Of a DNA stretch of 64,000 nucleotides, positions 30,608 through 52,480 are shown piece by piece. The stretch covers positions 62,001 through 126,000 of the forward strand of contig DUNN01000003.1 of the NCBI GenBank assembly GCA_012839345.1, in the 5' to 3' direction. The DNA comes from Clostridiales bacterium. Its GTDB lineage: Bacteria > Bacillota > Clostridia > Oscillospirales > Acutalibacteraceae. A model generated the notes under the pieces. It was given only the letters and a program-made list of their open reading frames with translations. It did no database searches and was not told where the DNA came from. Within the stretch, counting starts at the first letter, position 1. Each line of letters opens with the position of its first letter. The position numbers and the translations under genes are program-made.

Positions 30608-31255
30608 CTACTGAAGCAGAAGTGCTTTCAAAGTGGGAATATCCTTTGCAAAAACGGACGCACCCTCGTGCTCCATTTCTTCCTGCGTGCCAAAACCGTA
30701 CAGAACGCCGATGAACTGGGTGCCGGCTTCGCGCGCACCGGCGGCGTCAAAGCGAGTGTCGCCCACCATTACGGCCTGTTCAGCGGGAACGTGGCGGGCA
30801 TTCAGCGCAGACCGGATCAGCTCATCTTTGTTGCTGCTGTGCTCGTTTTCATCCGGGGCGGAAATAAAGTCAAAGTAAGGGGTCAAATGAAAATAATCCA
30901 GCACGGGAAGGGCAATGTTTTCCGGCTTGGATGTGGCGACTGCCAGGGAGATTTTCTTTTGCTTCAGTTCTTCCAGCAGCTCCGGAATCCCGGGGTAGGG
31001 CGCGTTCTGAAATGCCCCGGTTACATTGTACGTTTCCCGGTAAAGGAGTACCGCCTGTTCGGCTTGTTCTTCCGTCAGGCCGCAGTAATTGACGAAACTG
31101 GACCACAGCGGCGGGCCAATGAATTTACGAAGGGTTTCCTGCGGCGGTACGGGAAATCCCATTTTTTTCAGTGCCAGCGCGGCGCAGCCGGTAATGCCCG
31201 GCTCAGAATTTGTTAAGGTTCCGTCCAAATCAAATAAAATCAGCGAATAGCTCAT
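30608..31255 (-). CDS. HAD-superfamily hydrolase (phosphoglycolate phosphatase-like)
   Basis: LILFDLDGTLTNSEPGI, VATSKPENIA, VMVGDTRFDAAGAREAG. Confidence 0.9.
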   Translation of the reverse strand: MSYSLILFDLDGTLTNSEPGITGCAALALKKMGFPVPPQETLRKFIGPPLWSSFVNYCGLTEEQAEQAVLLYRETYNVTGAFQNAPYPGIPELLEELKQKKISLAVATSKPENIALPVLDYFHLTPYFDFISAPDENEHSSNKDELIRSALNARHVPAEQAVMVGDTRFDAAGAREAGTQFIGVLYGFGTQEEMEHEGASVFAKDIPTLKALLLQ

Positions 31256-31659
31256 TTGGATTCCACCTGGTTTGCTTTTCTGGATTCGGCCTTGTTCAGG
31301 AAGCTTTCCTTTTTCACGCTGACGCGTTCGTGCGTGCCCTTTGCAATCAGCCCGGCTTCATCATATGCCTCCAGTGCAAAGCGGAAAAAACGTCCCTCGT
31401 TTTCCGTCAGTTCGGCGGTCACCGTCACCGTTGCCCCGAGCGGCGTGGGGTTCAGATGTTCCACTGTGATTTTGGAACCAACCGTGGTGTAAATATCTTC
31501 TAACCCTTCCTGCGCAAGCGCCGCGGCAGCTCCTTCAAACAAGGCCGCGACGGTCGGGGTGGCAAGCACGCGCAGGCTGCCGCTGCCCACGTTTACCGCT
31601 AACATGTCTTCTGTAACGGTGTATTCGCGGGTCAGTTTTGCGGATTTTATTTCTTTCAT
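31252..31659 (-). CDS. Thioesterase family protein (FlK-like hotdog)
   Basis: MKEIKSAKLTREYTVTEDMLAVNVGSGSLRVLATPTVAALFEGAAAALAQEGL...SKITVEHLNPTPLGATVTVTAEL; overlaps the HAD gene by 4 bp. Confidence 0.85.
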   Translation of the reverse strand: MKEIKSAKLTREYTVTEDMLAVNVGSGSLRVLATPTVAALFEGAAAALAQEGLEDIYTTVGSKITVEHLNPTPLGATVTVTAELTENEGRFFRFALEAYDEAGLIAKGTHERVSVKKESFLNKAESRKANQVESK

Positions 31660-31766
31660 TGTCATTTCCTCCTTGCACATGATATAATAATTCTTGCTGT
31701 TCTAACTGTTGAAATGGTAAAAGCGGTTAAAATTAATAAACGGTGCGGTGTGCTCCACGAAAGCCC

Positions 31767-32083
31767 AAAGAAATTGCGGCCGCCGAAGGCGGGAAGGCGC
31801 TGCGCGCCGCCCAGCAATTTCCGAAAGTCAAACCAGCGGCAGCGGATTTGACTATTACACCGAGCTTGACGTGATCCAAAGAAATTGCGGCCGCCGAAGG
31901 TGGGAAGGCGCTGCGCGCCGCCCAGCAAATTCCGAAAGCCAAACCAGCGACAGCGGGTTTGACTATTACACCGAGCTTGACGTGATCCAAAGAAATTGCG
32001 GCCGCCGAAGGCGGGAAGGCGCTGCGCGCCGCCCAGCAATTTCCAAAAGTCAAATCAACCGCAGTTGATTTGACTATTATACC
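31767..32083. repeat. Tandem repeat, unit 111 bp, about 2.9 copies (31767, 31878, 31989)
   Basis: Direct alignment by eye: AAAGAAATTGCGGCCGCCGAAGG(C/T)GGGAAGGCGCTGCGCGCCGCCCAGCAA... repeated with exact 111-nt period; copies 1 and 2 differ at 5 positions. Confidence 0.95.
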
Positions 32084-32222
32084 ATAAAACCAACCCGGTT
32101 AAAAATAGTTTGTTCCAAACGCCAAGGCAGCCAAGAATTTGGGCGTGCCGTGCGCGTTTTGTGCCGTCGGCTGAATTCAAACGATCGGCGGCCGATATAC
32201 ATCACGTATGGAGGATGCGATT

Positions 32223-43407: not shown

Positions 43408-44499
43408 GTGAAAAAAAGACAGCATCTGGAACAGTCGGAAAGCCCGAACTATAATCCACAGGACAGCACCCGCGACAGGGCGAAAAAGGTTTTGTCGCTG
43501 GTATTCGGCATTCTTTTTCTTGTTTTTGGGGTGGGGTGCCTTTATGTGGACAACATGCTCAGCAAAATCAATTTTGTTCCGAACGAATCGGAAAGCTTCG
43601 GCTTGTCCTCTACTGCCGTATCTGCGCCGGTGTCCGTTCCGGAATCTGCGGCCAGCTCGGAACCAATCTCTGAACCGGGTATTGTCGGAGGGTTGTACCA
43701 TGATGATGCCATTACCAATGTGCTGCTTCTCGGGGTGGACGATTATCAGGCGAACGACCCGGGCCGCAGCGACACCATGATGCTGGTTTCCGTGGATACC
43801 CGCCACCAAAAGCTGAAGCTTACTTCCTTTATGCGCGATTTGTACGTGGCGATTCCGGGGCACAGCAGCAACAAGCTGAACACGGCGTATCACTTTGCCG
43901 GGGGCGGCGCGTCGGGCGCGGCGCAGACTGTGCTGACCATTGAAGCGAATTTCGGTGTGGACATTGACCGGTTTGTCATTATTTCGAACTCTGCGTTTGA
44001 TAAAATTGTGGATCAGCTGGGCGGGGTCAGCGTAACCATTACAGCGGAAGAAGCAAAACTGATCAACCGTTATTCCGGGGATTCGCGGCGCAACCTGACC
44101 GCAGGCACATTTAACCTGAGCGGCAAGCAAGCGCACTATTATGCCAGAATCCGTGCCATCGGCGACGATTTTGAACGTACGGAGCGGCAGCGGAAAGTGT
44201 TTGTCAGCCTGGCAAACAAATTTAAAACGCAGAATATCGGCACCATTTACAATGCCCTTTCCAATACGCTCGGGCTGGTGACGACCAATATGACCAAAAA
44301 TGAAATTCTGGGCATGGCCGCAAATTCCCTTACGTATCTGAACTACCCCATTAGCCAGTGCAGAATCCCTGCAGACGGCGAGTATTATTCGGATAATCTT
44401 ACGGTCGGGAACGTACTGGTGCCCGATATGCCGGCCTGCCAGAAGCGCGTGGCGGAGTTCATTTTTGAAGACGATCTTCCGGGGAAAAAGGCGGAATAA
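43408..44499 (+). CDS. LytR-CpsA-Psr (LCP) family protein, copy 1
   Basis: TM then LLGVDDYQANDPGRSDTMMLVSVDTRHQKLKLTSFMRDLYVAIPGHSSNKLNTAY... Confidence 0.95.
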   Translation: MKKRQHLEQSESPNYNPQDSTRDRAKKVLSLVFGILFLVFGVGCLYVDNMLSKINFVPNESESFGLSSTAVSAPVSVPESAASSEPISEPGIVGGLYHDDAITNVLLLGVDDYQANDPGRSDTMMLVSVDTRHQKLKLTSFMRDLYVAIPGHSSNKLNTAYHFAGGGASGAAQTVLTIEANFGVDIDRFVIISNSAFDKIVDQLGGVSVTITAEEAKLINRYSGDSRRNLTAGTFNLSGKQAHYYARIRAIGDDFERTERQRKVFVSLANKFKTQNIGTIYNALSNTLGLVTTNMTKNEILGMAANSLTYLNYPISQCRIPADGEYYSDNLTVGNVLVPDMPACQKRVAEFIFEDDLPGKKAE

Positions 44500-44614
44500 A
44501 ACCGGAAAAATAAAACTTAAATTTTAAATCCGAATCGTTGGGTTGAATTCATACACTATTCATATTATAATGTTATTATTGGAATTATGTTGAAAAACCA
44601 GCAGGGTATAATGA

Positions 44615-44638
44615 AAAAATCAGCTGCGGCTGATTTTT
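44615..44638. terminator. Intrinsic terminator after LCP copy 1
   Basis: AAAAATCAGC-TGCG-GCTGATTTTT. Confidence 0.75.
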
Positions 44639-44745
44639 CCGCCCGAAAATTGTCGTTTTGGCACGCTGTGCGGCGCAGTTTTTGGCTGGGTGCCTGTTTT
44701 ATGAAATCATAAAACGGTGGAATTTGGCCTTTAAGGATTGATGTT

Positions 44746-45819
44746 GTGAACAATATAAGAAAAAGCCCTGCCAGGGCAAGTTTTCAAGAGCATTTGGCAA
44801 GAAGAATTGTCTGTGTGGTTCTTGGCGTTCTTTTCCTGTTTTCCGGTGTGGTGTGCCTTTACGCGGACCGGATGTTGAGCCAGATTAACTACGCGGCGCA
44901 GGATACCCCCTCCCATGTGCAGACCGGCGAACTGTTCGGCGGGGTGAACGGAAAATCGAACGGAACCTCCAGTGCTAAGTCCGGGCTGGTGGGCGGCCTT
45001 TATCATGACGATGCGATTAATAATATTCTTTTGCTGGGTGTGGACGATTACCAGAAGAACGACATCGGCCGCAGCGACAGCATGATGATGGTTTCGGTGG
45101 ACTCCCGCCACAGCAAACTAAAGCTGACCTCATTTATGCGCGACATGTACGTCGCCATACCGGGCTTTAAAAGCAACCGCATCAACACGGCTTATTCCGA
45201 CGGCGGCGGCGGACCGGACGGCGCAAAACTGCTGGTTAGTACGCTGGAAGCGAACTTTGGAACGGACATCGACCGGTACGTGATTATCAGCAACTCCGCG
45301 TTTGATCAAATCATTGACATGCTGGGCGGCGTAACCATTACGCTGACTGCGGGGGAAGCAAAGCTGATCAACCAGAATTCCGGCGATTCACGGCGAAACC
45401 TGACTGCCGGCACGTTTAACCTGAGCGGCAAGCAGGCGCATTATTATTCCCGCATCCGTGCCATCGGTGACGACTTTGCGCGTACCGAACGGCAGAGAAA
45501 GGTTTTTTCCAGCATTGTCAGCAAATTGAAGTCTTCCAATATTGCAACCATATACAGTACACTTTACGAAGTTCTGCCGTTGGTTACCACCAATATGACG
45601 AAGAACGAAATCCTTGGCATGGCGGCCAACTCCCTTACATACCTGAACTACCCCATCAGCCAGAACCGGGTGCCTGGGGATTCGGATTACCATTCCGAAC
45701 GGGTCAGCATTGGGGGGAGTCCCGCAGATGTATTGGTACCGGATTTGCAGAAGTGCAGCCAGAACTTGGCAAGCTTTATCTATGAAAGTGATATTCCGGA
45801 TAAACAGTACGAAGACTGA
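44746..45819 (+). CDS. LytR-CpsA-Psr (LCP) family protein, copy 2
   Basis: LLGVDDYQKNDIGRSDSMMMVSVDSRHSKLKLTSFMRDMYVAIPGFKSNRINTAY; closely similar to copy 1 throughout. Confidence 0.95.
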   Translation: MNNIRKSPARASFQEHLARRIVCVVLGVLFLFSGVVCLYADRMLSQINYAAQDTPSHVQTGELFGGVNGKSNGTSSAKSGLVGGLYHDDAINNILLLGVDDYQKNDIGRSDSMMMVSVDSRHSKLKLTSFMRDMYVAIPGFKSNRINTAYSDGGGGPDGAKLLVSTLEANFGTDIDRYVIISNSAFDQIIDMLGGVTITLTAGEAKLINQNSGDSRRNLTAGTFNLSGKQAHYYSRIRAIGDDFARTERQRKVFSSIVSKLKSSNIATIYSTLYEVLPLVTTNMTKNEILGMAANSLTYLNYPISQNRVPGDSDYHSERVSIGGSPADVLVPDLQKCSQNLASFIYESDIPDKQYED

Positions 45820-52145: not shown

Positions 52146-52480
52146 CGTCCTTTCCTGACCGGAAGCTGTGTTTCGTTCTGCGGCAGCGCTACATTCTTTG
52201 ATTTTATTATACATCAAATTGCGATCAAACTGTGAACAATCCGTAAAACGGGATGAAAAGTAGGTTCCGTTATGTTATAATAAGGAAGTTGGCATAGGCC
52301 GTTGTTCCGTTCGAAAATTGCTGTAACGTTTCGGACCGCACAGGTCATTCGGTGCATCGGCGGCTGATGTTCTATTCAAAAGCATAATTTGGCGCACAAT
52401 GCCTTGCCCACCCCGGCGGCGTGGTTTTACGGCATGGCGCTTCTTTTATCGGATCATAAAAGCCCCAGGGAGGGATTTTG

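Follow-up and report, generated by a model that had tools for sequence, protein, structure and literature searches.

A structured non-coding repeat behind promoter -10 boxes in a Clostridiales genome, a probable mobile element

The repeat array and its neighbours

The window analysed here is a 64,000 nucleotide stretch of a Clostridiales bacterium (contig DUNN01000003.1, positions 62,001 to 126,000), and positions without a contig label refer to it. Its sole tandem array, between two divergent genes, was located by Tandem Repeats Finder at 31765-32083 (period 111, 2.9 copies, 91% matches) and consists of three units of about 95 bp, which at a period of 111 span 31767-32084. The coordinates, period and inverted repeats of the original prediction all hold on re-examination, and its count of five differences between copies 1 and 2 is correct. 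The outer arms GAAATTGC/GCAATTTC and the 12 bp inverted repeat 32048-32059/32064-32075 were both found, the latter lying within a longer inverted repeat, 32045-32059/32064-32078.

In minus-strand orientation the parts of a unit are, in order, an extended -10 box (TGGTATAATAG), a 12 bp hairpin (H1), a short linker, and a three-way junction (3WJ). The 3WJ is built from an 8 bp closing stem (GAAATTGC/GCAATTTC) enclosing two 5 bp hairpins, GGCGC/GCGCC and CCGCC/GGCGG. The extended -10 has the consensus sequence in unit 3, the gene-distal copy, where the arms of H1 are AGTCAAATCAAC/GTTGATTTGACT, and is mutated to TGTAAT in units 1 and 2. The features are as follows, with bit scores from models R1 and R2.

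31252-31680, minus strand: FlK-type thioesterase gene, downstream of the array and codirectional with it (PF22636, E 1.2e-30)
31767-31862, minus strand: unit 1, closest to the thioesterase gene, with the mutated -10 TGTAAT (R1, 108.3 bits)
31863-31877, minus strand: spacer between units, the second being 31974-31988 (sequence and period)
31878-31973, minus strand: unit 2, with the mutated -10 TGTAAT (R1, 100 bits)
31989-32084, minus strand: unit 3, the most distant from the thioesterase gene, with -10, H1 and 3WJ (R1, 115.4 bits, E 8.4e-25)
31992-32043, minus strand: 3WJ of unit 3, closing stem 31992-31999/32036-32043, hairpins 32002-32006/32010-32014 and 32018-32022/32026-32030 (inverted repeats, two-sided changes, folding)
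32048-32075, minus strand: H1 of unit 3, a perfect 12 bp, arms 32064-32075 and 32048-32059 (inverted repeat, two-sided changes)
32076-32081, minus strand: TATAAT -10 hexamer in the context TATGGTATAATAG, taken to be the -10 of the host promoter itself (sequence, flank alignment)
44604-44685, plus strand: diverged copy ahead of a codirectional LytR-CpsA-Psr gene at 44746 (PF03816) (R1, 34 bits, E 2e-5)
52273-52431, plus strand: probable relic copy behind TGTTATAAT, retaining TTCGAAAATTGCTG, ahead of an ORF at 52478 (R2, weak at 21.8 bits, E 0.095; sequence)

The other neighbour of the array is an HGSNAT_cat gene on the plus strand (PF07786), which we take to be the gene originally named DUF1624. 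The array has the orientation of a promoter and leader for the thioesterase gene only, and orthologous thioesterase intergenic regions in the genus are without the element, so that the earlier suggestion of a regulatory array for the two divergent genes is not supported in that form. When folding was compared with dinucleotide shuffles, copy 3 was far better than these on either strand, with z scores of -4.7 on the minus strand and -5.5 on the plus strand, and copy 1 gave -1.7 and -2.3. Elsewhere in the window, at 43408-45819, there are two tandem genes for similar proteins, the second being the LytR-CpsA-Psr gene by Pfam, and the diverged copy at 44604-44685 lies between them.

A dispersed family in the host genome

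The genome to which the window belongs (G000) comprises 2.53 Mb in 36 contigs, in an assembly that is 85.5% complete. A search of it with one unit, a check that had been proposed at the outset, returned copies on several contigs, so that the unit is not unique to this locus. With the covariance model R1 there are 12 strong sites, plus weaker ones and relics. All 12 are directly 3' of an extended -10 and directed into a codirectional downstream gene. By Pfam, these genes encode a thioesterase, a lepA-type GTPase, an Exo_endo_phos protein (xthA-like), a UvrD helicase, a DUF3842 protein, a lactate/malate dehydrogenase, an IMS polymerase (dinB-like), UDG, RNase H, and a bacterial sugar transferase; the remaining two are a PHP-like protein, for which Pfam gave no match, and fliW, the latter by reading of its sequence. 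Weaker copies are upstream of M16 peptidase, Obg, M29 peptidase, and LytR-CpsA-Psr genes. The array at the dinB-like gene is counted as one site, its inner 73 bp units having no -10 of their own; in this promoter (G000:C2:29773-30085, L047) each of these units is a repeat of the 3WJ that lacks the left arm of H1 as well as the -10.

Model R3, which is restricted to the 3WJ and contains neither the -10 nor H1, recovered in G000 the identical 12 sites, with 17 units in all, as well as one weak copy, all behind a -10, and no further copy away from these sites. The association with the -10 is therefore not an artefact of its presence in the query. Nor is the element a general feature of promoters here, since among 41 TGnTATAAT sites in a 464 kb sample that includes the window, five have the element and only one of the other 36 has a hairpin directly behind the -10, which rules out H1 as a general promoter hairpin.

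By Pfam, five of the 12 strong sites precede genes of repair or nucleic-acid processing (IMS polymerase, UDG, Exo_endo_phos, UvrD, RNase H), a count made post hoc. The pattern might point to a regulon, or to promoters in an open state during DNA damage.

None of the covariance models of Rfam 15 came near its gathering score on the element. Exact-pattern scans for the 3WJ core, in collections that possibly do not include the species of the window, gave no match among viral contigs and 22 among genome contigs, none above 22.2 bits with R1; the five of these that were inspected look unrelated, with no -10 or H1 seen.

Presence in other genera

The combination of -10, H1 and 3WJ is also present in three other genera of the family, represented by G127, G085 and G018 (models R1 and R2), with neighbouring genes named by reading of their protein sequences. 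In G127 there are nine matches, including a three-unit array upstream of a RuvC-like gene (L137), which adds to the repair-gene pattern. G085 has two loci, one of them a three-unit array upstream of an rlmB-like gene, and in G018 a single site precedes a response-regulator gene. The stem sequences largely differ between genera, as do the sets of genes behind the element, while the architecture is common to them and often in tandem. Arrays other than the one in the window have periods of 73 bp (the dinB-like promoter of G000), 103 bp, and about 104 bp. Under strict filters, by which weak copies are likely to be missed, 4 of 398 family genomes and 2 of 394 genomes in an order-level sample are positive, G000 being included in both counts. 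The element is therefore rare and patchy in its distribution. At the start of contig C2 of G085 (L172) a second type of tandem repeat comes after the element, and has its own hairpins and starts that resemble GGGATAAAT.

Conservation of base pairing

Across genera, in 25 aligned units fitted to the model, 94.4% of pair cells are standard and two-sided changes are seen at 24 of 29 pairs; shuffles gave means of 78.2% and 11.7 pairs, and slid partners at most 46% and 10. Within G000, two-sided changes are seen at 14 of the 29 pairs (6 of 11 in H1) in a MAFFT alignment of 13 units, two of which had one base left out to keep the register. In neither case did any of 500 shuffles reach as many two-sided changes, a statistic that ignores relatedness between the units. 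The original view that the structure looks selected is thus supported by compensatory changes, with templated mutation as the alternative.

Cells with G.U and A.C are about equal in number (9 to 7, then 19 to 15), so that no strand preference is indicated. Transcription is expected to start 6-8 nt after TATAAT, and the most variable H1 pairs involve bases between the -10 and this expected start. They would therefore be outside the RNA made from that -10, so that in the outer part of H1 either DNA-level pairing or templated mutation is favoured. It is partly for this reason that the element is not classed as a regulatory RNA.

Empty orthologous promoters and the origin of the -10

Orthologous promoters were gathered from three genomes of the same genus with a chimeric query of gene segments, and the element is absent from all of those collected; a search across the genus gave a marginal match at most. 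The left flank of the element is homologous up to and through the -10 in three of three orthologs at the M16 peptidase gene and in two of three at both uvrD and obg, with none of 300 shuffles as good. At uvrD, an unusual AAGGTACAATA is common to G000 and its ortholog in G006. Judged by these alignments, the -10 at several sites is demonstrably the ancestral -10 of the host promoter. Where orthologs can be aligned, the possibility that the -10 is part of the element is ruled out, as the empty orthologs have a matching -10.

At the thioesterase locus homology of the left flank through the -10 is seen with one orthologous promoter out of six, and by eye an extended -10 is present in this region in all relatives. 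The flanks at dinB, ung, ldh and the DUF3842 gene are too diverged from their orthologs to judge the ancestry of the -10, and a native -35 read by eye at ldh was not significant. By eye, a short hairpin of an unrelated kind often follows the -10 at 10-20 nt in the thioesterase promoters of element-free relatives (L075-L083).

Duplication of the -10 region

At the M16 peptidase locus both flanks can be compared. The left flank aligns with the same three orthologs up to the -10, and the right flank, from about 11 nt past the element, aligns with them over a stretch that begins at the -10 (TTATGGTATCATGA against TTGTGATATAATAA) and reaches the ribosome-binding site. The three orthologs thus have the -10 region once, and in G000 it flanks the element on either side, which would make this an insertion with target duplication. 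This demonstration on both flanks is at one locus only, and with a diverged copy (39 bits).

Direct repeats that include the -10 are also seen after the element at uvrD, the DUF3842 gene, and two loci of G127 (15 bp at L073; 19 bp and perfect at L138), and a second -10 lies approximately 7-10 nt past the element at L164 and L161. At L164 H1 too is contained in the right-hand repeat, which is equally compatible with target duplication and with partial tandem duplication. At most sites the right-hand -10 repeat is absent, and it may therefore fade with age or not always form.

Comparison with known repeat families

Like MITEs and the Correia elements of Neisseria, which can alter expression, the element is short, non-coding, dispersed, structured, and near genes. 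It is about 95 bp at 12 strong sites and carries no transposase gene, as is usual for MITEs; a target-site duplication, also usual for them, is seen at the M16 locus against three orthologs, with direct repeats at a few other sites and none at most. No conventional terminal inverted repeats were seen in it. A Correia element is directly downstream of the mtrCDE promoter, and Correia elements, like several other MITEs, bring promoter sequences with them (PMC10969869), whereas here the -10 belongs to the host at the testable sites and the repeated target contains the promoter -10.

The BOX, RUP and SPRITE repeats of Streptococcus pneumoniae are likewise small, interspersed and structured, and are found in only a few species. 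BOX has a modular build in which the number of boxB units varies (PMC3049150), and in this resembles the arrays described here. These repeats are enriched between convergent genes (PMC3049150), in contrast to the 12 of 12 sites at promoters in a single orientation. REPs, too, are short palindromic intergenic repeats that are sometimes clustered; they are 20-40 bp long and most are in superfamilies with a GTAG or CGTC tag at one end (PMC3733652). Neither the tag nor the consistent presence of a Y1-type transposase that would mark a REP/RAYT system was found here, there being no GTAG or CGTC at the foot of H1 and no Y1 match in two of the four carrier genomes. In the open-access literature covered, with its reviews of MITEs, REPs and pneumococcal repeats, no element was found that is described as -10-targeted.

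Y1 was the only transposase family sought as a mobilizer. There was no match in G085 or G018, an IS200-like gene in G127, and in G000 a fragment at a contig end (G000:C5:99014-99091, L170), which is the start of an IS200-like transposase gene cut by that end. The ends of Y1 elements do not match, and a Y1 mobilizer is not supported. Some H1 stems of G127 resemble the GTCCAAC/GTTGGAC of integron attC sites; those of G000 do not, and this candidate was dropped.

Interpretation

The dispersed copies, the empty orthologous sites and the duplicated -10 region support the original suggestion of an uncharacterised mobile-type repeat family. With a probability of about 0.6, this family consists of small non-coding, non-autonomous mobile repeats (approximately 85-95 bp) that insert at -10 boxes, duplicate the -10 region and become the 5' leader of the mRNA, with arrays formed by tandem duplication; this reading comes from sequence comparison, and movement is deduced from species that differ a lot.

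A rather unlikely reading is that the element is a cis-regulatory 5' leader, riboswitch-like or operator-like, which coordinates a set of genes, with H1 as an operator or a 5' hairpin over the start and the 3WJ as a ligand-binding or protein-binding RNA. The leader position and orientation of all 12 sites would be as expected, as would a fold conserved through two-sided changes and the post hoc share of repair genes. However, within the genus the element is missing from the promoters of the orthologous genes and the downstream gene sets differ between genera, while the missing Rfam match, the lack of an excess of G.U over A.C, and the position of the most variable H1 pairs outside the RNA all argue against this reading as well.

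There is a smaller chance still that no transposition was involved, and that promoter-proximal sequence was amplified by slippage, tandem duplication and hairpin template switching, the last of these also perfecting palindromes, with occasional spread by recombination. Such amplification fits the occurrence, at several loci, of tandem arrays whose unit includes the -10, and the -10 to -10 distances in single copies, which are close to the array periods, and equal frequencies of G.U and A.C are expected if templated mutation keeps the pairing; but it leaves unexplained both the presence of nearly the same unit at 12 unlinked promoters, whose flanks are otherwise unrelated, and the empty orthologous sites. 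That the array is a coding repeat, 111 being a multiple of three and the array being crossed by ORFs of 106-125 aa, is so improbable that it was ruled out, as the other array periods are not multiples of three, no ribosome-binding site was scored at the two frames in the direction of the gene, and the changes preserve base pairs.

For the mobile element reading, the working model is that the element would enter active promoters at the -10 or beside it, the target perhaps being the single-stranded DNA exposed by the open transcription bubble. Roughly 14-19 bp including the -10 would be duplicated, and the upstream -10 copy, still paired with its -35, would go on driving the gene, with an mRNA that would start inside H1 and carry the 3WJ as its leader. 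The repeated -10 segments may then allow slippage or recombination, giving rise to tandem arrays like the one of 3 x 111 bp in the window. The proposed insertion and -10 duplication steps rest on comparative evidence, which is strongest at one locus.

It is tentatively suggested, at somewhat less than even odds, that these repeats represent a class of bacterial mobile repeat that targets the promoter -10 or open transcription complex, duplicating the -10 and serving as a 5' leader, in which the 3WJ fold is kept while the sequence turns over between genera. If so, it would be a bacterial counterpart of elements that target transcription starts, with integration tied to the promoter rather than being random or directed by a simple DNA word, and would imply a natural -10-addressed integration activity with an enzyme that could be searched for. 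Promoter-proximal tandem arrays would be explained as repeats of an inserted unit, and insertions would rewrite the 5' leaders of many genes while leaving their promoters unbroken.
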